Assembly (NCBI GenBank): GCA_028281005.1
Contig: JANQKS010000083.1
Coordinates: 1 to 36,508 of the forward strand
Length of the DNA stretch: 36,508 nt
Direction: 5' to 3'
Source of the DNA: Pseudomonadales bacterium
GTDB taxonomy: Bacteria; Pseudomonadota; Gammaproteobacteria; Pseudomonadales; Azotimanducaceae
The notes beneath the pieces were generated by a model. That model saw nothing but the letters and a program-made list of their open reading frames with translations. It made no database searches and was not told where the DNA came from. The translations under genes were made by a program, and so were the position numbers. Below, in pieces: positions 2,108 through 25,540 of the stretch (the first letter of the stretch is position 1; the number at the start of each line of letters is the position of its first letter).

Positions 2108-2326
2108 TTACAAGAACTTCCTCACTAGGCTGATCAGCGCGGACAGCACCACGGAGATGATAATCATCGACATGAGCGGGAAGTAGAACTGGGATCCCTC
2201 GCGTTTAATGTGGATGTCACCGGGCAAATTGCCAAACCAGCCAAAGATGCCGGTTTTTGCCACGATACCGGCGATCAGCAGGAACACACCCAAGAAGATC
2301 AGCCAGTTGCCTATAGAATTTTGCAT
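2108..2326 (-). CDS. DUF2905 family small membrane protein
   Basis: A 72-residue protein starting at ATG 2326. An in-frame upstream start would only add an unlikely polar leader. It has the DUF2905 layout: an N-terminal membrane helix (WLIFLGVFLLIAGIVAKTG), the central motif FGNLPGDIHIKREGSQFYFPL, and a second C-terminal helix. The family is of unknown function and found in the inner membrane. The gene is transcribed away from the operon that starts at 2390, so the 63-bp gap should hold divergent promoters. Confidence 0.85.
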   Translation of the reverse strand: MQNSIGNWLIFLGVFLLIAGIVAKTGIFGWFGNLPGDIHIKREGSQFYFPLMSMIIISVVLSALISLVRKFL

Positions 2327-2389
2327 GATGTGTGTATTCTCGCACGACACACTCCACAACCGCACGCTTGTGAAAGACCTGGGGAAAAC

Positions 2390-2839
2390 ATGATCGATCT
2401 GGACGTGGCAACTAACGACAACGAGCGTTTAGCGCTGGGCATATTCAAAGCCATGGAAGACGGTACTTTGCCGCAAGCGCTTGAAACTCTGTGCAGCGCT
2501 GACTTTGAGTGGGCAAACTCCGGCTTGCCGACGTTGCACGGGCGCCAGGCGGTGCTCGATCACATGGCCCAAGGCGGCTTTGCGGCGGTGGTGCCGATCT
2601 TAAAAGACATGACCGCGTTCAGTGCAGATCTCCTGCACATCGCCAGCCGTGACAACGTCGTGTTTACCGAACGCATAGATCATCATTGGGATGCCCAAGG
2701 CCGGGATTTAATGACCCCACACATCGCGGGGGTGATCGAGATCCGCGACGGCAAAATATGTGCGCTGCGGGATTTTTACGACGCGGTCTGTTATCAGCAA
2801 GAGCCGCTAGAGCGGGTAGAGCCGGCTGAGTCGGCCTAA
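2390..2839 (+). CDS. SnoaL / limonene-epoxide-hydrolase-like protein
   Basis: A 149-residue protein with the NTF2-like fold: an N-terminal helix (NERLALGIFKAMEDG), then LHGRQAVLDHM and a C-terminal sheet ending EIRDGKICALRDFYD, which is the typical end of SnoaL/LEH proteins. Family members are small cyclases, isomerases or epoxide hydrolases, or non-catalytic ligand binders, so the substrate is unknown. The start at ATG 2390 is preceded by a GGGGAAA ribosome-binding sequence. The frame is open further upstream, but that part overlaps the divergent DUF2905 gene. It is the first gene of a tightly packed operon: the next start lies 2 nt after its stop. Confidence 0.75.
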   Translation: MIDLDVATNDNERLALGIFKAMEDGTLPQALETLCSADFEWANSGLPTLHGRQAVLDHMAQGGFAAVVPILKDMTAFSADLLHIASRDNVVFTERIDHHWDAQGRDLMTPHIAGVIEIRDGKICALRDFYDAVCYQQEPLERVEPAESA

Positions 2840-2841
2840 CG

Positions 2842-3324
2842 ATGAGTTTGATTACACCCCAGCCGGCCGCCTCAGAGCTCGAGGGAATACTGAAACATCG
2901 CCCGGAGCTGCTCGAAAAGTACCGCACGTTTTATCTGAGTTTTTGGCACGACGGTCTGGTACCGCGGCGGGTGTTGGAGTTGTGCCGGCGCCGTGTGGCG
3001 CACATACAGGGTTGTGAGGCCGAACTCGCTTTGTCGGATCCACAGACGCGGCTCAGCCCGGCCGAAGAAACTGCCCTTGCGCAAGGTGATTTCGCGTCAT
3101 TTAGCGCAGCCGAGCAAAGCGCCTTGGTGTTAGCGGAGTCGATGCCGAATGGCGTACATTATATTTCAGACGAAGAAGTTAAGAGGGCGGCGCGTGAGTT
3201 GGGTGAGCCCGCTTGCGTGGCTTTGTTAACCGCGTTGTCTTTTATGGACGTAAACTGCCGTTTAAAAATTGTGTTAGGCGCTGACGTTGCGCCCGGTAGT
3301 TTGCACGACGATATTCTTAACTAA
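2842..3324 (+). CDS. AhpD/carboxymuconolactone decarboxylase-like protein lacking CxxC
   Basis: A 160-residue all-helical protein of the CMD/AhpD-like type (YRTFYLSFWHDGLVPRRVLELCRRRVAHIQGCEAE). In active AhpD-like proteins this place holds a CxxC thiol pair; here only the first cysteine (C58) remains and the second is glutamate (E61). The protein is a clear paralogue of its downstream neighbour: FYLSFWHDGLVPRRVLEL matches the downstream FFDLYAEFWQRGVVGAEIKEM, and both share an EADSAVLALTDAL-like region. It may be a non-redox partner subunit or use a different chemistry. It starts 2 nt after the preceding stop, so translation is probably coupled. Confidence 0.8.
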   Translation: MSLITPQPAASELEGILKHRPELLEKYRTFYLSFWHDGLVPRRVLELCRRRVAHIQGCEAELALSDPQTRLSPAEETALAQGDFASFSAAEQSALVLAESMPNGVHYISDEEVKRAARELGEPACVALLTALSFMDVNCRLKIVLGADVAPGSLHDDILN

Positions 3325-3343: not shown

Positions 3344-3856
3344 ATGTCGACCATACCTAGAATCTCTTCAGCCATCGTCGGTCAAGCGGAAGATTTCGCC
3401 TCGGTTACCGCCCACGCACCGGACATGATTGCGCGGTTTTTTGATCTTTATGCGGAGTTCTGGCAGCGCGGTGTGGTGGGGGCCGAAATCAAGGAAATGA
3501 CCCGCCTGCGTAACGCCAGAATTACGGACTGTGGATACTGAAAAAACGTGCGTTTTGACTCTGCCCGTGCGGCAGGGCTGGATGAAGGTAAGGCGGATTT
3601 GATTGAAGACGGTTATGCGCAGCAGTTGTCCGAGGCGGACAGCGCGGTGTTGGCGTTGACCGATGCGTTAATCGGTATTCCTGGGCCGATGCCGGAATCA
3701 CTACAGCAGCAACTGCGGGGACATTACAGCGAGGCGGAGCTGGCGGAGTTGGTGCTTGGGGTAGGTTTGTTTTTGGGCATGTCCAAAGTGCTGATTTCGT
3801 TGGGCTTGGAGCCGGAATCGATGCCCGTTACCGTGATTCCAACGCCGGGTGCTTAA
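3344..3856 (+). CDS. AhpD-like selenoprotein (CxxU), in-frame TGA at 3539-3541
   Basis: Two same-frame segments (3344-3538 and 3542-3856) are separated only by a single TGA. Read through as selenocysteine they give one 170-residue CMD/AhpD-like protein. The local sequence is RNARITDCGY-U-KNVRF with Sec at residue 66, so TGA replaces the second cysteine of the family's CxxC redox motif (C63-G-Y-U66). The residues after it (DSARAAGLDEG) continue the family pattern without a break. A hairpin at 3559-3577 fits a bacterial SECIS. AhpD-like proteins relay electrons in peroxide reduction, and AhpD-like selenoproteins have been reported from marine metagenomes. Start ATG 3344 has only a weak ribosome binding site. 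The next gene starts 3 nt after the stop. The alternative is a simple nonsense mutation, which the position of TGA and the hairpin make unlikely. SelA/SelB/SelC are not in this window. Confidence 0.85.
3559..3577 (+). promoter_or_regulatory. putative bacterial SECIS hairpin
   Basis: A 7-bp stem (CTCTGCC pairing with GGCAGGG, including one U-G pair) closes a 5-nt loop CGTGC at 3566-3570. The loop begins 24 nt after the TGA at 3539-3541. The bSECIS rules ask for a loop about 16-37 nt from UGA, a short stem and a G among the first two loop bases; all are met. It would recruit SelB to insert selenocysteine. Confidence 0.75.
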
Positions 3857-3859
3857 CTT

Positions 3860-5428
3860 TTGGCGTACAACAGTCAGCAGCCTTATCCTTCTCAGCGCGC
3901 CCCGGTAGCAGCGGACAATCTGGTTGCCACGTCACAACCGTTGGCAACCCAGGCTGGCTTGTCGGCATTAGCTCGTGGTGGCAATGCGGTGGACGCGGCA
4001 TTGGCCAGCGCCATTACCCTGACGGTGGTTGAACCCAACAACAATGGGGTGGGCAGTGATGCCTTCTGTATCCTCTGGGACGGTGACGAGCTAGTGGGCC
4101 TCAATGCATCGGGGTGCTCACCGGCGGCCTGGTCATTAGATCGTTTTGCCGGGCGTGAGCGGATGCCAAACCTGGGGTGGGACAGCGTGACGGTGCCAGG
4201 CGCGGTGAGCGCGTGGGTTGCCTTGTCGGACCGTTATGGGCAGCTGCCGTTTGCGGACCTGTTTGTCGATGCCATTGGTTATGCGGCGAACGGATTTCAT
4301 GTAGGCCCTAAGTCAGCACACTACTGGCAGATACTGGAGCCGCACTACAAAGATTTTCCAGCCTTTGTTGAGCACTTCATGCCGCCGCCGGCCGCCGGAG
4401 AGCGTTTTCGTCGGCCCGAGTTGGCACGCACTTTGGATCTGATTGCGGCCAGCAAAGGTGAGGCGTTTTATCGTGGTGAGTTGGCGGATGCCATGGCGGC
4501 TTGTGCGGCGCGCGAAGGTGGCGCCATGACCAAGCAAGACCTCGAAGCGCATGCCTGTTTTTGGCTGGCACCCAGCGAGATCTCTTACCGCGATGTTACT
4601 TTGCATGAAATTCCGCCGAACGGTCAGGGATTGGCGGCGCAGATCGCCTTGGGCATGCTGCGTCATCTGCCCGCTGCAGAAGTGGATTCCGCGCTATGGG
4701 TGCACCAGCAGGTCGAGGCAATGAAAATTGCCATCCGCGCTGCGTTTCAACATTTTGCCGATCCTTGCGCCATGCGCATCAGCGTTGAAGAATTGTTAGA
4801 CGCGGGCATGCTTGCGCAGATGGCGGCGTCCATCGGTGAACGCGCCGCGCCACTGCCTCCGGCTGAGCTCCCGGTGGGGGCCGACACGGTCTACCTGACC
4901 ACGGCGGACGCCAGCGGCATGATGGTGTCTTACATTCAATCCAACTTTATGGCGTTTGGTTCGGGTGTGGTGATCCCGGGTACTGGGATCAGTATGCAGA
5001 ACCGCGGCGCTGGGTTTGTCTTGGATCCACAACATCCCAATTGTGTGGGGCCGTCCAAGCGACCGTTCCATACCATTATCCCCGGCTTTGTTACCGCCGA
5101 GGCTCAGCCGCGCCTAAGTTTTGGGGTCATGGGTGGCCACATGCAGCATCAAGGCCATGTGCAGATGGTCACGCGCATATTTGATCACGGTCAAAATCCG
5201 CAAGCCGCGAGCGACGCGCCTCGCTGGCATGTGCACCCTGATTTTACGGTGAGCTTAGAGCAAGGTTATGCGGAAGAAGTGTGTCAAACGCTGCAGAACT
5301 GGGGGCATCAAGTTACCCTGGGTGGGCAGGAAAGCACTTATGGTGGGGCGCAGCTTATTTTGCGTACCGCTGATGGCTATGTGGGCGCATCCGACCATCG
5401 CAAGGAAGGTTATGTGGGCGGGTTTTAG
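3860..5428 (+). CDS. gamma-glutamyltransferase family protein
   Basis: A 522-residue Ntn-hydrolase of the gamma-glutamyltransferase (GGT) family. The N-terminal part carries the typical GLSALARGGNAVDAALA and EPNNNGVGSDAF. The autocatalytic cleavage site is around T343 (GADTVYLTTAD), and the C-terminal part has GSGVVIPGTGISMQNRG and KRPFHTIIPG. Canonical enzymes have TTH at the nucleophile; here it reads TVY, so cleavage of glutathione itself is not certain. No signal peptide is seen, unlike periplasmic E. coli Ggt. The start is a TTG 3 nt after the selenoprotein stop, so its translation probably depends on read-through of the upstream UGA. It may process gamma-glutamyl or glutathione conjugates made in the same pathway. 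Confidence 0.85.
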   Translation: MAYNSQQPYPSQRAPVAADNLVATSQPLATQAGLSALARGGNAVDAALASAITLTVVEPNNNGVGSDAFCILWDGDELVGLNASGCSPAAWSLDRFAGRERMPNLGWDSVTVPGAVSAWVALSDRYGQLPFADLFVDAIGYAANGFHVGPKSAHYWQILEPHYKDFPAFVEHFMPPPAAGERFRRPELARTLDLIAASKGEAFYRGELADAMAACAAREGGAMTKQDLEAHACFWLAPSEISYRDVTLHEIPPNGQGLAAQIALGMLRHLPAAEVDSALWVHQQVEAMKIAIRAAFQHFADPCAMRISVEELLDAGMLAQMAASIGERAAPLPPAELPVGADTVYLTTADASGMMVSYIQSNFMAFGSGVVIPGTGISMQNRGAGFVLDPQHPNCVGPSKRPFHTIIPGFVTAEAQPRLSFGVMGGHMQHQGHVQMVTRIFDHGQNPQAASDAPRWHVHPDFTVSLEQGYAEEVCQTLQNWGHQVTLGGQESTYGGAQLILRTADGYVGASDHRKEGYVGGF

Positions 5429-5475: not shown

Positions 5476-5904
5476 ATGCCGATAAAAAATGTATTTGCGG
5501 AAACCACCGCGCTAAAAGCCAACATCGAAAACCTGAGCGTGGTGCAACTGCAACAGGAAATGGCGGACAACGAAGATCTGTTGGTCATCGATTTGCGGGA
5601 AATCCAGGAGGTGGTGGACCTCGGCACCATTCCCGGCGCCAAACACGTGGCGCGCGGTATGCTGGAGTTTTGGGCGGATCCTGCCAGTCCTTATTACCGT
5701 GATTACTTTGGTGAACATAAACGCACGGTAACGTTTTGTGCGGGTGGTGGACGTTCAGTGTACGCCACGCTGGCTTTGCAAGACATGGGGTATACCGATG
5801 TGGCGCACTTAGAAACGGGCTTTAATGGCTGGCAAAAGGCCGGCGGCGAAGTGCAAGACGTAAGCGCCACCAGCCGCTGGGTGCGTCGGGATTCGCAAGA
5901 TTAG
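5476..5904 (+). CDS. rhodanese-like domain protein
   Basis: A 142-residue single rhodanese domain. The N-terminal half holds LLVIDLREIQEVVDLGTIPGAKHVARG, and the active-site loop is TFCAGGGRSVYATLAL with the catalytic cysteine present, followed by GYTDVAHLETGFNGWQKAGG. Such proteins carry a persulfide and transfer sulfane sulfur to acceptors such as cyanide or thiols. There is no signal peptide, so it is probably cytoplasmic. Start ATG 5476 follows a purine-rich ribosome-binding region. It sits in the operon with the GGT homologue and the AhpD-like pair, which points to thiol or sulfur chemistry. Confidence 0.9.
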   Translation: MPIKNVFAETTALKANIENLSVVQLQQEMADNEDLLVIDLREIQEVVDLGTIPGAKHVARGMLEFWADPASPYYRDYFGEHKRTVTFCAGGGRSVYATLALQDMGYTDVAHLETGFNGWQKAGGEVQDVSATSRWVRRDSQD

Positions 5905-5923: not shown

Positions 5924-6961
5924 ATGAAATTTGACATGATGGTCGGCAACAACAGCTGGGCGGATACCGCTCAGCTTGCGCAAAACCTTCAGCAGCACGG
6001 TTTTTCCGGCATGCTGTTTACGGAAGCGGGCACCACGCCGTGGATGCAAATCACAGCGGCCGCCATGGCCGCACCTGAGCTGGAGTATTCCACCGGTATC
6101 GCGGTGGCTTTTCCGCGCAGTCCCATGATAGCGGCACAGATTGCCTGGGAGTTAGCCGCCAATACCCAGGGGCGTTTTCGGCTTGGCTTGGGCAGCCAGG
6201 TGAAAAGCCATGTAGAGCGTCGCTACAGCGCTGAGTTTGATAAACCGGCGCCGCAAATGCGCGATTACGTACAAGCCGTGCAAGCTTGCTTGCGCGCTTT
6301 CCGTGGTGAAGAAAAGCTTAATCACGCCGGCCCTTACTACCAGATGAATTATCTGCCGGGGCAGTGGGCGCCGCCGCGACACGATTACGAAACTGCGGTG
6401 AAGGTGGATATCTCCGCGGTGGGTCCCTATATGTGTCGCTTAGCCGGTGAGCTGTGTGATGGCGTACACGTACATCCCATGCACTCCATGCATTACATCG
6501 AAACTCGCCTGCTGCCCGCATTGGCTGAAGGGGCGGCAAAAGCCGGACGGGACGTGACGGCGGTGGATCTGATGATTCCCCTGTTTGCCGTACCCGGTGA
6601 TAGCCCGGAAGAACGCCAGGCGCTTACTCAACTGGCAAAAGTGCAAATTGGTTTCTACGGCTCCACCCCAAACTATGCGTTTCAGTTTGATGATCTTGGA
6701 TTCACGGGTACGACCGCAAAGCTGGGTGCATTGATGAAAGCGGGTGACTTCCAGGCCATGACCGACACCATCAGCGATGAAATGCTCGAACATTTTGCCG
6801 TCGTTGCAGCCTGGGACGATCTGGCGGACGCGCTTATCAAACGTTACCAAGGCACCGCGCGGCGGGTGGTGTCTTACCTCACGGCCGCGGATCTGGCCCG
6901 TCATCCAGACAATATGGGCCGCTGGGGTGAAGTGGCGCGGGCAGTGACGGCGGTGGGCTAA
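5924..6961 (+). CDS. LLM-class flavin/F420-dependent oxidoreductase
   Basis: A 345-residue protein of the luciferase-like monooxygenase superfamily (TIM barrel). Recognisable segments are the start MKFDMMVGNNSW, the strand EYSTGIAVAFPRSP, GRFRLGLGSQVKSHVERRY, and the C-terminal ERYQG-like KRYQGTARRVVSYL. It most resembles the F420-type branch (the TIGR03617-like group), although the cofactor (F420 or FMN) cannot be read from sequence. The substrate is unknown. It is the last gene of the SnoaL/AhpD/GGT/rhodanese operon, 20 nt downstream of the rhodanese gene, and is followed by a non-coding gap of 148 bp. Confidence 0.85.
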   Translation: MKFDMMVGNNSWADTAQLAQNLQQHGFSGMLFTEAGTTPWMQITAAAMAAPELEYSTGIAVAFPRSPMIAAQIAWELAANTQGRFRLGLGSQVKSHVERRYSAEFDKPAPQMRDYVQAVQACLRAFRGEEKLNHAGPYYQMNYLPGQWAPPRHDYETAVKVDISAVGPYMCRLAGELCDGVHVHPMHSMHYIETRLLPALAEGAAKAGRDVTAVDLMIPLFAVPGDSPEERQALTQLAKVQIGFYGSTPNYAFQFDDLGFTGTTAKLGALMKAGDFQAMTDTISDEMLEHFAVVAAWDDLADALIKRYQGTARRVVSYLTAADLARHPDNMGRWGEVARAVTAVG

Positions 6962-7109: not shown

Positions 7110-8576
7110 ATGGATCTACCCGCAGAACTGTTAGATAACCCCGCCGATCAACCTTATTGGGACACGGCCGGGGTGCATGAGGTGCTGAGCCGTAGCGGCG
7201 ACGCGCAAACTTTACGTTCCACCGAACGTTTTTTGCAGAAAGCCGATTGGTTGCCACAGGCGCTCAATCGCGAGGACATTCGCGATGAACAAAGTCGCGA
7301 ACTCGTTAGCCTGGTGGCGCAATCGCTGGAAGCTGCCATCAAGAAAAAGCGTGCCGCGAGTCTGCTAGTGCAGGTAGCTGAGATCGATGCGGGTGTGTTG
7401 GTCATGGCCAACGATGGCCGCGGCGGGCGTCGCTGGGTGTTTGTGCAACAACTCGACGAGACGAGTTTGGTGGATGCCCTGGATCGCCTTACGGACGGTA
7501 AACCGACCTGGATCTGGCCCCATGGCGACGTCACCGCGTTGTGCCGCGCGCTGCAAGCCAAGGACAACAGTCTCAGCGTCAAGCTCCCCAGCGGCAACAG
7601 TGTGCAGTTGGCGCTGACTGCCTATCGCGGCACGTTACATCTGAAAGAATATCCGCCAAGCCCACCGCGCACAGACGATGAGCTGACCCACCTTGACCGT
7701 TTGGAAGCGGAAAGCATCCACATTATGCGTGAAGTGGTGGCCCAGGCTGAAAATCCGGTGATGTTATACAGCGTGGGCAAAGACAGTTCCGTGATGCTGC
7801 ATCTGGCGCGCAAAGCTTTTTACCCGAGCCCGCCGCCGTTTCCGTTGATGCACGTGGACACCCGCTGGAAGTTCCAGGCGATGTATGACTTTCGCGACCA
7901 AATGGCGCAAGAGGTTGGCATGGAGCTGATTGTGCACATCAATCCGGACGGTGTGGCCAAGGACATGAACCCGTTTGACCACGGCAGTGCGTTGCACACC
8001 GATGTCATGAAGACCCAAGGTTTGAAGCAAGCGTTAGACCAACATGGATTTGATGTGGCGTTTGGCGGTGCACGGCGTGATGAAGAGAAGAGCCGCGCTA
8101 AGGAGCGGGTGTTTTCTTTCCGCAACGCAGCACACCGTTGGGATCCGAAAAACCAGCGTCCGGAGCTGTGGAATATCTACAACGGTTACAAAAAACCCGG
8201 TGAAGGGATCCGCGTGTTCCCACTGTCGAATTGGACCGAGCTGGACATCTGGCAGTACATCTACCGTGAACACATTCCCATAGTACCGCTTTACTTTGCC
8301 GCGGAACGTCCCGTGGTGGAACGCGACGGCATGTTGATGATGGTGGACGACGACCGTATGCGCATGTTGCCCGGTGAAGAGATTCAGACCCGCCGTGTGC
8401 GTTTCCGGACGTTGGGTTGTTACCCGTTGACCGGCGCGTTTGATTCAACCGCGGACAATTTGTCCTCCATCGTGTTGGAGTTGCTGCAGAGCAGAACCAG
8501 CGAACGCCAGGGCCGCGCCATCGATACCGATAGCGCGGGTTCCATGGAGAAGAAAAAACAAGAGGGGTACTTCTAG
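7110..8576 (+). CDS. cysD: sulfate adenylyltransferase subunit 2 (CysD) with N-terminal extension
   Basis: Residues from about 193 to 488 are CysD, the PP-loop subunit that makes APS from sulfate and ATP together with Cys[13 protein letters not shown], the PP-loop SVGKDS at 221-226, [17 protein letters not shown], and a C-terminal [20 protein letters not shown]. The usual family length is about 300 residues. Here about 192 residues precede the domain, with no internal ATG or GTG where normal CysD starts, so the extension is part of the protein. I do not recognise the extension; it looks folded ([20 protein letters not shown], then [18 protein letters not shown]). The conserved DTGWKF reads DTRWKF (R252). 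It overlaps cysN by 1 nt. Confidence 0.9.
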
Positions 8577-10462
8577 TGGCCGAGGAAATCAGAGAAGAGG
8601 TTTTAGAATCCCGGGTGCAGACTTATATCGACACCCAGGCCAATCTTGATCTGCTGCGCTTCATCACTTGCGGGAGCGTAGACGACGGCAAAAGTACGCT
8701 GATTGGCCGCATGTTGTACGAGGCGCAGTTGATTTTTGAAGATCAAGTGACCTCCCTGCAACAAGACTCCAAACGCCAAGGAACACAGGGGGGCGACATC
8801 GACTTTGCCTTGCTGGTCGACGGGCTTGCTGCGGAGCGTGAGCAAGGCATTACCATCGACGTGGCGTACCGTTTCTTTAGTACCGATCACCGCAAGTTTA
8901 TTGTTGCCGACACCCCCGGCCATGAGCAGTACACGCGCAACATGGTGACCGGGGCTTCTACCGCAGACGTGGCGGTGATTTTGGTGGACGCGGTGAATGG
9001 CCTATTGACCCAGACCCGACGGCATTCCTTCATCACCTCTCTGTTGGGTATCAAACACGTGGTCTTGGCGGTCAACAAGATGGACTTGGTGGATTACGAT
9101 CAGGCGGTCTACGAGCAGATTGTGGAAGACTATCGGGAGTTTGCTAAGCAACTTAACTTCACCGACATCACACCGATCCCGCTGTCCGCGCTGAAAGGCG
9201 ACAACGTGATTGAACGCTCGGCTAAAACGCATTGGTATACCGGCCCAACGCTGTTGGGCTTCTTGGAAACTGTGGAAGTCCACAAACAAGAAGACAACAA
9301 GCCGTTTCGTTTTCCAGTGCAGTGGGTGAATCGGCCCAGCGCTGATTTTCGCGGCTTTGCCGGCACGGTATTGGCGGGGTCCATCGCCAAGGGGGATGAG
9401 GTGCGCGTACTGCCGTCCGGCGAGGTGGCCAAAGTTGCAGACATTGTCTTGTATCAAGACAGTCTGCCGCGCGCGCATACCGACCAGGCAGTGACCATCA
9501 CCTTGGACCGTGAAGTGGACGTGTCGCGAGGGGATGTATTGGTCGCCGCAGAAGCGCCCAGCGAGGTATCGGACCAATTTGACGCATCCCTGGTATGGAT
9601 GGATGCGGATGAAGGCTATATCGGCCGCAACTATTGGCTGGTTATCGGTAGTAAACGTGTCAACGCCACGCTCAGCGACATCAAGTTTAAGTACAACATC
9701 AACACCCTCGAGCAACTGTCGACACGCTCGTTCGGCCTAAACGACATCGGCCGGGTGACGCTGAGCTTTGATCAGGTGGCGCCGTTTGAGACCTACGAGG
9801 ATTGTAAAGGTCTCGGCTCCTTTGTCCTGATCGACCGTTACACCCACGCCACCGTGGGTGCGGGCATGATCAATTACGCGCTGCGCCGCGCGAAGAATAT
9901 CCATCGGCACGCCCATGACGTGGACAAAAACGCTCGCGAGCAACTTAAAGGCCACAAAGGCAAAGTGTTGTGGATGACCGGCTTGAGTGGTTCGGGCAAG
10001 TCGACACTGGCCAATGGCGTGGAGCAAGCGTTACACGCGCAAGGCAAACACACCTTTATTCTCGACGGTGATAATGTCCGCCACGGTTTAAACAAAGATT
10101 TGGGGTTCACCGATGCTGACCGGGTAGAGAACATCAGACGTACCGCGGAAGTTGCGAAACTGATGGTGGAGGCGGGTCTGATTGTGATCACGGCCTTCAT
10201 CTCACCGTTCCGTTCAGAACGGGATATGGCCAGGGCGCTGTTTGAAGACGGTGATTTTGTGGAAGTGTTCTGTGACGTACCGTTGGATGTTGCTGAGCAG
10301 CGTGATCCCAAAGGTTTGTACAAAAAAGCTCGACGTGGCGAGCTGCCGCACTTCACGGGTATCGATTCACCCTATGAAGCGCCGCAGTCGGCGGAGATTC
10401 ATATCCGCACTTCGGACATGAGTCTGGAGGAATCGGTGGCCGAGGTGCTGAAGCATGTCTGA
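8576..10462 (+). CDS. cysNC: bifunctional sulfate adenylyltransferase subunit 1 / APS kinase (CysNC)
   Basis: A 628-residue fusion. Residues 1 to about 440 are the CysN GTPase: P-loop GSVDDGKST at 33-41, DTPGHEQY at 112-119, NKMD at 167-170, then the EF-Tu-like barrels. Residues from about 455 are the CysC APS kinase: P-loop GLSGSGKS at 469-476, [28 protein letters not shown] hydrolysis drives APS formation with CysD; the kinase half then makes PAPS. The start is GTG overlapping the cysD stop (TAGTG), so the two are translationally coupled. The fusion is common in proteobacteria. No cysH was found in the window. Confidence 0.95.
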
Positions 10463-12109: not shown

Positions 12110-12892
12110 ATGAGTTTTGCACCGTTTGATTTAACCGGGCGCGTCGCGCTGATTACCGGCGGCAATGGCGGCATAGGTTTAGGCATGGCGCGCGGCATGG
12201 CTGCCGCCGGCGCGGAAATCTGTATCTGGGGGACAAACCCAGACAAAAACGCTAACGCGCTAGCGGAGCTGTCGTCGTTTGGCCCCAAAGTCACCGCCCA
12301 GGTGTGCGATGTGGCGGACGAACAAGCTGTGGAAGCGGCTTTTGCTCAAGCCCTGGCAGACCATGGCCGTGTGGATGGCTGTTTTGCCAATGCCGGTGTG
12401 GGTGGTCGCGGTACGGGTTTTGACGATATGACCATCGAAGAATGGAATCACATCATCGGGGTCAACCAGACCGGTGTTTTTTTCACATTTCGCGCTGCCA
12501 CCAAACACATGCGCGAACGGGCGCAACAAGGGGATGCCTTTGGACGATTGGTCGCCACCGCCAGTTTGGCGGCCGTTTCCGGGCAGGCGCGGGGTGAACA
12601 TTACGCGGCGGCCAAAGGCGGCATGATCTCCATGATCAAAGCGTTGGCGGTAGAGTACGCACGTTATGGCGTTACCGCACATACGCTGCTGCCGGGGTGG
12701 ATAGAAACCGAGATGACCGAAGGGGCGTTTGCCAATCCAAAATTTGTAGACAACGTGTCAAAACGTATTCCGACGCGCCGTTGGGGGGTGCCGGATGACT
12801 TTTCCGCCATTGCGATCTACATCATGAGCACAGCCAGCAGTTATCACACGGCTGAAACTTTCCTAATCGACGGCGGTTACGCGTCTTTTTGA
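12110..12892 (+). CDS. short-chain dehydrogenase/reductase (SDR)
   Basis: A 260-residue classical SDR. The NAD(P)-binding motif TGGNGGIG lies at 16-23, CFANAG follows, and the catalytic pair is Y165/K169 (YAAAK). The C-terminal LIDGGYASF is typical. The substrate is unknown. It is followed 50 nt later by a second SDR and then the TAXI-TRAP transporter, so this plus-strand group probably imports and oxidises or reduces a small organic compound. The leader carries tandem CAA-rich repeats. Confidence 0.93.
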   Translation: MSFAPFDLTGRVALITGGNGGIGLGMARGMAAAGAEICIWGTNPDKNANALAELSSFGPKVTAQVCDVADEQAVEAAFAQALADHGRVDGCFANAGVGGRGTGFDDMTIEEWNHIIGVNQTGVFFTFRAATKHMRERAQQGDAFGRLVATASLAAVSGQARGEHYAAAKGGMISMIKALAVEYARYGVTAHTLLPGWIETEMTEGAFANPKFVDNVSKRIPTRRWGVPDDFSAIAIYIMSTASSYHTAETFLIDGGYASF

Positions 12893-24277: not shown

Positions 24278-25540
24278 GTGGCGCAACCTACGGTTGACCG
24301 TATTGCATCGCTGGATGTGTTACGCGGTTTTGCGCTGCTGGGTATTTTGCTGCTCAACATCATCGGCTTCGGCCTGGTGTCCACCGCTTACTCCAACCCG
24401 CCGGCGGGTTTCAGCCACCCTGCGGATCCCTTTGTCTGGGGTGGGGTGGAATTGTTTGCCGAAGGCGCCATGCGGTGCCTGTTCTCCATATTGTTTGGTG
24501 CCGGGGTGGTGTTGTTCACCACTGGTGCCGCCGGTAAAAGCGCTTCGCTACATTATCGGAGAAACTTCTGGCTGCTGCTGATCGGTTTGTTTGATGCCTA
24601 CGTGCTGTTGTGGAACGGTGACATTCTGATCAACTATGCGCTCTGTGGCGCGCTGCTGTACCTGGTGCGCAACGCATCGCCCGGCAGATTGCTGATTACC
24701 GCCGGAGTCCTGATTGGCTTAATGTCGCTGATGTATACCGGCACCGGCATGGGCATGGGGGCCGCAAAACAGGCGGCGGCACAGGTAGCGGCTGCTGCTG
24801 ACAAGTCGACCTTACCGGCGCAGGTATTGGAGGGTGCCGCCACCTGGGAAGACTTTGCCGGTGGTTTTGTCGGTAGCCCCGAGCAGGACGCGGCTGAACT
24901 GGCCGCGCGGCAGCACTCCTATGCCAGCGCGTTTGCCTGGAACGTGCCAAAAACCAACGAAATGCTGACCTTTGTCATGCCGGTGGTGTTGTTTTGGGAT
25001 GCGTTGGCCATGATGTTACTGGGTATGGCCCTGTACAAATACGGTGTACTTCAAGGGGAACGCAGTTCAGCTTTTTACAAACGCTTGATGCTGATTGGAT
25101 TTGCCTGCGGGCTGTTGGTGAACGGTTACGAGGTGTATCGGGCTTTTGCCGGAGATTTTGCGCTTTTGAGCGTGTTTGCTCAGGCGCAACCCACTTATCA
25201 TATTGGCCGCTTAGGTATGGCCATGGGGTATCTCGGTTTAGTCATGCTGTTGCTGCGCGGCGATCTACTCGGTCGTCTATATGATGGTCTGGCTGCTGTG
25301 GGGCGCATGGCTTTGACCAATTATCTGCTGCATTCGCTGCTGTGTTTGTTCATCTTTACCGGTGCAGGTTTTGGCCTGGTGGGAGAACTGCATCGCTGGC
25401 AGCTGTACTTTGTGGTGGTTGGTATCTGGCTGCTGCAACTTTGGCTCAGCCCATGGTGGTTGGCACGCTACCGTTTTGGCCCCGTGGAGTGGTTGTGGCG
25501 TGGGTTAACTTATGGGGCTTGGCCCGCCTTAAAACGATGA
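24278..25540 (+). CDS. DUF418 family membrane protein
   Basis: A 420-residue polytopic membrane protein. The N-terminus RIASLDVLRGFALLGILLLNI is the conserved DUF418 start, and the C-terminal FLALTNYLLHSLLCLFIF-like segment with WLLQLWLSPWWLARYRFGPVEWLWR is the domain itself. The function is unknown. The GTG start at 24278 directly follows the stop of the MoaD-like gene, so they are co-translated. The link to the molybdenum enzyme may be fortuitous. Confidence 0.9.
   Translation: MAQPTVDRIASLDVLRGFALLGILLLNIIGFGLVSTAYSNPPAGFSHPADPFVWGGVELFAEGAMRCLFSILFGAGVVLFTTGAAGKSASLHYRRNFWLLLIGLFDAYVLLWNGDILINYALCGALLYLVRNASPGRLLITAGVLIGLMSLMYTGTGMGMGAAKQAAAQVAAAADKSTLPAQVLEGAATWEDFAGGFVGSPEQDAAELAARQHSYASAFAWNVPKTNEMLTFVMPVVLFWDALAMMLLGMALYKYGVLQGERSSAFYKRLMLIGFACGLLVNGYEVYRAFAGDFALLSVFAQAQPTYHIGRLGMAMGYLGLVMLLLRGDLLGRLYDGLAAVGRMALTNYLLHSLLCLFIFTGAGFGLVGELHRWQLYFVVVGIWLLQLWLSPWWLARYRFGPVEWLWRGLTYGAWPALKR

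Follow-up and report, generated by a model that had tools for sequence, protein, structure and literature searches.

A probable CMD/AhpD-fold selenoprotein read through an in-frame TGA and encoded behind a second CMD-fold gene in a Pseudomonadales bacterium

Standard ORF calling in a 36,508-nt stretch of DNA from a Pseudomonadales bacterium of the Azotimanducaceae (assembly GCA_028281005.1, contig JANQKS010000083.1; the whole stretch is hereafter the window) gives two short ORFs in succession, one of 65 amino acids (3344–3541) and one of 102 amino acids starting from GTG (3548–3856). Is the TGA that ends the first of them a stop, or is it read as selenocysteine (Sec)? Translated with TGA as U, 3344–3856 yields 170 residues closed by a TAA stop, with a single TGA at residue 66, where a CxxC motif has its second Cys; the motif here reads C63-G-Y-U66. 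The first-pass annotation, made from the letters alone, had called this frame a probable selenoprotein with a C-G-Y-U motif and a single TGA at 3539–3541, and these coordinates hold. It had also expected an automatic annotation to return two truncated proteins or a pseudogene, and ORF calling does give two fragments. The following gene begins 3 nt later, as it had noted, the next ORF having a TTG start at 3860. Its main claim is borne out as well: 3344–3856 very probably encodes a selenoprotein with Sec at residue 66, because the TGA is kept in 16 genes and replaced by a Cys codon at 23 further loci, the Sec machinery is present, a hairpin follows the TGA and the frame beyond it is under selection. 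The features discussed are collected in Table 1.

Table 1. Features of the selenoprotein locus and its neighbourhood (positions in the window).
Feature	Position	Strand	Remarks
SnoaL/LEH-like gene, upstream of the partner gene	2210..2839	+	also at L033 and L038; short 39-residue matches at L020 and L024
Partner gene, CMD fold without CxxC	2842..3324	+	directly upstream, 19-nt gap; homologue upstream in 15/16 Sec loci
Probable selenoprotein gene, CMD/AhpD fold, 170 aa, Sec at residue 66 (CGYU)	3344..3856	+	translation with TGA = U, conservation, profile and fold matches
Codon of E51, counterpart of PA0269 Glu36	3494..3496	+	invariant in 13 A1 rows; assigned from motif spacing, the Glu standing 12 residues ahead of the first Cys in each protein (PA0269 from the available text)
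Codon of C63, first residue of CxxU	3530..3532	+	invariant in 13 A1 rows
TGA probably read as selenocysteine (U66)	3539..3541	+	TGA in 16 genes, TGC/TGT in 23/23 Cys-form loci
Codon of R70, place of the AhpD/PA0269 relay His	3551..3553	+	invariant in 13 A1 rows; Arg in 23/23 Cys forms
Predicted bSECIS hairpin	3559..3577	+	arms 3559–3565 and 3571–3577; loop CGTGC 3566–3570; TGA to loop 24 nt
Gamma-glutamyltranspeptidase-family gene	3860..5428	+	3 nt downstream; matched at 5 other loci
Rhodanese-domain gene	5476..5904	+	matched at 6 other loci
Luciferase-like monooxygenase gene	5924..6961	+	TIGR03617 above cut-off; matched at 6 other loci
CysD-like gene with N-terminal extension	7110..8576	+	matched at 3 other loci
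CysNC gene (sulfate adenylyltransferase/APS kinase)	8576..10462	+	matched at 3 other loci

Conservation of the TGA and selection beyond it

Relatives were collected from several genome sets. A scan of genome contigs gave 12; among 58 genomes around the window's own, 10 had a match (E ≤ 1e-20), with one TGA in eight (the window's genome included, all of the same genus) and none in two. A class-wide sample of 369 genomes returned at E ≤ 1e-25 only the window's genome and one Cys form, and an order-wide sample of 390 genomes at E ≤ 1e-15 had matches in 36 genomes, those examined being loci L045–L073. Once L032, L034, L036 and L037 are merged with L020, L024, L026 and L027, of which they are duplicates, there are 16 distinct Sec-form genes including that of the window, all with TGA at residue 66 and with zero further internal stops; one of them (L031, 44% identity) comes from an Acidimicrobiia assembly. 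Every one of the 23 Cys-form loci examined (L041 and L045–L066, L051 and L055 being second occurrences of L039 and L040) has TGC or TGT at the aligned position. The check on homologue codons proposed in the first-pass annotation thus returned nothing at residue 66 other than TGA or Cys. More distant CMD proteins with no second CMD-like match (L069–L073) stand outside the 23 and outside the Cys-form selA count given below; the frame of one of these, L073, contains a TGA, but away from the aligned site.

The nearest Cys form (L045, genome G705, same family but a different genus) shares 58% identity with the window protein, so that Sec and Cys forms lie adjacent at short distance. In a tree of 34 rows (the 16 Sec forms, 16 of the 23 Cys forms, i.e. 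without L053, L054, L056, L058, L060, L065 and L066, and two members of a second Sec family), in which 9 of 31 inner branches are open, L045 groups with the Sec form L029 inside the Sec clade (support 95/64), and its genome keeps selA. This grouping hints at a change from Sec to Cys.

The reading frame past the TGA is under protein-level selection. Over 12 comparisons with the window, made on 13 of the 16 Sec sequences (L031, L033 and L038 left out), median pN/pS was 0.26 before the TGA and 0.41 after it in frame (codons 67–155), the two shifted frames giving 1.02 and 1.38. These values bear on the simplest alternative, that the TGA is a true stop, an old CxxC gene having been interrupted by pseudogene formation or by misassembly. 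Such a reading would account for the two called ORFs, and the TGC and TGT codons of the homologues are each one base away from TGA. The same TGA is found in 15 other assemblies, however, which makes a local sequence error very unlikely, there is no other internal stop, and both the selection on the in-frame codons and the covarying hairpin described below run against it. We reject a pseudogene or assembly error on the conservation of the TGA, the pN/pS values and the hairpin, and regard its probability as very small.

Selenocysteine machinery and the hairpin behind the TGA

The window's genome (5.1 Mb in 135 contigs, 98.67% complete) carries selA, selB, tRNA-Sec and SelD on a single contig, C47. 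SelA scored 537.3 bits, SelB, which has its winged-helix domain, 452.6 bits, and tRNA-Sec, with anticodon TCA, 71.7 bits. SelD lies above the TIGR00476 cut-off (274.1 bits vs 125), and the same chain reaches 468 bits, under the cut-off of 700, against the SelD-related fusion model TIGR04369 (fusion_not_SelD). The search for selB and selC suggested in the first-pass annotation therefore found both, together with selA and selD. The SelD part follows a pyridine nucleotide-disulfide oxidoreductase domain in one fused chain (L017 1408–3498, minus strand, G000:C47); the available part of PMC2398784 reports an Ndh-SelD fusion from GOS data.

Across the relatives, selA was above cut-off in 13 of the 16 Sec-form genomes vs two of the 23 Cys-form genomes (G705 and G039; Fisher p 5.7e-6, kinship ignored). 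Of the three remaining Sec-form genomes, G009 and G432 had no selA match and G430 a partial one only (positions 1–124, 90 bits). Similarly, selB was above cut-off in seven of the eight Sec-form genomes searched, the exception being G009, an assembly of about 520 contigs with a completeness of 96%; that its missing selA and selB fall in an assembly gap is only a guess.

Bacterial SECIS (bSECIS) elements are expected to have a loop of 3–9 nt, a stem of 4–16 bp, a G in the first two loop positions, a spacing of 16–37 nt and a minimum free energy of −7.5 kcal/mol or below, as listed in the accessible text of PMC13188914. The window hairpin lies within all of these limits, with a loop of 5, a stem of 7, G at the second loop position followed by U, 24 nt between TGA and loop, and −9.9 kcal/mol. 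Calculated on the 19-nt hairpin, the energy falls within that published limit in 15 of the 16 Sec forms, L031 at −6.3 kcal/mol being short of −7.5. In the 16 Sec sequences, from which the structure was itself derived, 98.2% of pair cells are paired vs 30–57% in slid controls, and three of the seven pairs show compensatory changes on both sides (13 such cells). Two of five measures did not beat shuffled alignments in the shuffle control (both-sided pairs 107/500; further pair types 498/500). A third-position pair changes in step in 15 of 16 sequences, TCT going with GCA in nine and TCC with GCG in six; in L022 and L025 the TCC and GCG codons flank a Val that replaces the first Ala. At the same register the 23 Cys-form rows could form 0–5 of the seven pairs. 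Rfam at its gathering threshold gave zero matches in the window.

Hairpin and machinery also bear on whether translation might stop at the TGA and re-initiate at GTG 3548, two small proteins then being made by design. That GTG does lie just 6 nt past the TGA; the Cys-form homologues, on the other hand, run as one open frame across the site, the hairpin fits the bSECIS rules as far as these are available, and the Sec machinery is present. Re-initiation is rejected on these three points, and we would give it hardly more than a marginal chance. A third possibility is that TGA is decoded as some other amino acid, either because the genetic code assigns it to Trp or through a suppressor tRNA; no evidence in favour of this turned up. 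At the 23 Cys-form loci the residue is Cys and never Trp, three window ORFs (8576–10462, 12110–12892 and 24278–25540) terminate in TGA, and the genome encodes Sec machinery; TGA as Trp is rejected on this evidence, and decoding as any other amino acid is in our estimate practically negligible. With Sec as the preferred reading, the hairpin, with its loop 24 nt past the UGA, would recruit SelB carrying Sec-tRNA-Sec (anticodon TCA), and selenocysteine would enter the chain at residue 66, placing C63-G-Y-U66 in the active-site region of the CMD/AhpD fold.

The window's genome also contains a second CMD-like gene with an in-frame TGA, in a C-F-T-U motif (L004, G000:C15:82089–82424, minus strand), which is cut by the contig end and scores 60.8 bits against NF053654, under the cut-off of 310. 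Relatives of L004 in two other genomes (L067 and L068) have the TGA too, with hairpins after it of −14.6 and −12.5 kcal/mol. Their TGA falls at the aligned site, but they belong to another family and form 5 and 3 of 7 pairs at the register of the window hairpin.

Fold, active site and relation to known CxxU selenoproteins

The window protein scores 17.4 bits against the CMD profile PF02627, under its 23-bit cut-off, and all 13 members of alignment A1 (13 of the 16 Sec sequences; L033, L035 and L038 left out) match this profile at E ≤ 10, the best at 1.3e-09. No NCBIfam cut-off was reached by any of the 16 members, the nearest model for the window protein being TIGR01926 (27.8 of 81.8 bits). 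An AlphaFold2 model with Sec modelled as Cys (pLDDT 80.5, pTM 0.75) finds its best fold match in PA0269 of Pseudomonas aeruginosa (2ijc, 2o4d; TMt 0.83). The available text of PMC3141380 gives the relay of PA0269 as Glu36, Cys48, Tyr50, Cys51 and His55 and the general AhpD pattern as Glu-Cys-(His/Tyr)-Cys-His. By motif spacing from these published positions, the counterparts in the window protein would be E51, C63, Y65, U66 and R70: Glu, the first Cys and Tyr are kept, whereas Sec replaces the second Cys and Arg replaces His55. Some relatives have Phe or Leu in place of the Tyr. Arg is invariant in A1 and in 23 of 23 Cys forms, so that its exchange for His is independent of that between Sec and Cys. 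Of the label 'AhpD/CMD-like' used in the first-pass annotation, membership of the CMD superfamily with a PA0269-like fold stands; a strict AhpD it is not, because the relay His is replaced by Arg.

Selenoproteins of this kind have been in print since 2005, when AhpD-like and CMD-like CxxU proteins were reported from the Sargasso Sea (PMC1088965), in agreement with the earlier statement that AhpD-like selenoproteins were already known. The AhpD-like ones were reported again from GOS data in 2008 (PMC2398784), and AhpD/CMD-like selenoproteins appear in reviews of 2022 (PMC9312934) and 2026 (PMC13188914), all as far as the accessible portions of these papers go; MCB9421940.1 and MEE2999090.1 are among the AhpD-like sequences that PMC13188914 names. 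AhpD is absent from the main text of the deep-Sep paper (PMC12013277) in the portion available.

Several of the published groups come close. The AhpD-like selenoproteins of COG2128/YciW (TIGR01926) are, as described in the available text, likewise AhpD relatives with Sec second in CxxU; no member of the present set exceeds the 81.8 bits of that model (best 35.7), although the set may coincide with one of those published groups. The YciW-related (seleno)protein model NF053654 is matched by all 16 members (best E 6e-13, L031), their scores of 20.0 to 48.9 bits all lying below the cut-off of 310. NF041238, the alkylhydroperoxidase-related (seleno)protein also known as Sargasso hypothetical protein 1, is of the CxxU kind too; only L023 and L028 are listed against it at E ≤ 0.001, aligning with the last third of the model (229–337 of 357 positions) at 18.6 and 21.9 bits vs a cut-off of 175, which none of the 16 exceeds. 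With its 357 positions, this model may represent a one-chain counterpart of the two-gene pair described below, and if the first half of such proteins is the partner domain, the window pair would be the split form. The Sargasso 'CMD domain-containing protein' (PF02627) and NF041047 are, from what is available of their description, likewise CMD/AhpD relatives with CxxU; 10 of the 13 A1 members match NF041047 weakly (best E 0.00025), and the Sargasso CMD proteins were compared by description only.

Within this known kind of selenoprotein, three things are new: a sub-family whose 16 members all fall below every NCBIfam cut-off, the Arg in place of the AhpD relay His, and a second, CxxC-less CMD-fold protein whose gene directly precedes that of the selenoprotein in 15 of 16 Sec loci, with matches in the vicinity of the Cys forms as well and, in one case, a fusion to a Cys form. 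The two-subunit arrangement is possibly new as well. The first-pass annotation knew of no description of the operon context, and among the literature matches listed there was no title or abstract start describing either this context or a paired CMD selenoprotein.

The CMD-fold partner and the gene neighbourhood

A homologue of the partner gene lies directly upstream in all Sec loci except L021, where no match was found at E ≤ 1e-4, with gaps of −1 to 63 nt. The model of the window's partner protein (pLDDT 83.5) retrieves CMD-fold chains at the top with probability 1.00, at a best E of only 4.7e-03, so that Foldseek gave no match at E ≤ 0.001; nine of 12 partner proteins match NF053654 at E ≤ 10. 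A second CMD-like match is found at all 23 Cys-form loci (weak at L047 and L055). In L065 (G053:C16) a CxxC-less partner and a CxxC CMD domain are naturally fused, with no stop between them, in an open frame given as 389 residues. At L040 (350–1468, minus strand, genome G039) a Cys-form CMD pair lies directly before the gene of the tRNA 2-selenouridine synthase MnmH, possibly a second link to selenium.

Genes of thiol and sulfur metabolism follow the pair in the window's genus. Rhodanese and luciferase-like genes lie downstream at L020, L024, L026, L027, L033 and L038, the gamma-glutamyltranspeptidase-family gene is matched at L020, L024, L026, L027 and L035, and CysD and CysNC at L020, L024 and L027. 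Matches to the selB profile about 3.4–3.5 kb downstream in G003, G026 and G030 were taken for CysNC. The CysD-like protein of the window has 488 residues, of which only about 189–488 form the CysD part; the N-terminal part had no Pfam match at E ≤ 0.001. None of these downstream genes was matched at L021, L022, L023, L025, L029 or L030, and the sequences of L028 and L031 end too early to judge. Since all loci with these genes belong to the window's genus, they are a local hint only to a role in sulfur or thiol metabolism; the position of the pair in front of them suggests that the substrate may be a low-molecular-weight thiol or another sulfur compound.

How the two CMD-fold proteins relate may be read in two ways. 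The first is a two-gene selenoenzyme, in which a CxxU CMD subunit would be obligately paired with a CxxC-less CMD subunit, a heteromeric branch of the CMD proteins with interchanging Cys and Sec that in the window's genus sits within a thiol/sulfur operon; we put this forward tentatively, at somewhat less than even probability. In the second, the selenoprotein would stand but the upstream CMD gene would be a linked paralogue, the enzyme being a homo-oligomer of the PA0269 type. PA0269 itself forms a hexameric ring in the crystal and by gel filtration, according to the available text of PMC3141380, and L021 has no partner match; against this stand the partner homologue upstream in 15 of 16 Sec loci, the L065 fusion, and the further CMD-like match that accompanies the Cys forms. 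The homo-oligomer, too, we consider plausible at a little under an even chance.

As a redox couple, C63 and U66 would make and break a selenenylsulfide while reducing their substrate, be it a peroxide, a disulfide or some other oxidized thiol, and E51 and R70 would line the active site. The CxxC-less upstream partner would work together with this protein in a hetero-oligomer, as the half that binds the substrate or serves a structural role. For the redox couple with its two lining residues, and for joint work with the partner, we see roughly even odds. Our best guess at the function is a two-subunit thiol or peroxide oxidoreductase.

As ORF calling splits the frame into two fragments and none of the 16 members reaches any NCBIfam cut-off, genes of this sort can easily be overlooked or mistaken for defective copies. 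With the partner gene retained and one fusion among them, the 16 Sec-form and 23 Cys-form relatives offer a clean system for asking what difference Sec makes to an enzyme of the CMD fold, and the same set is suited to the question of whether CMD-fold enzymes act as hetero-oligomers.
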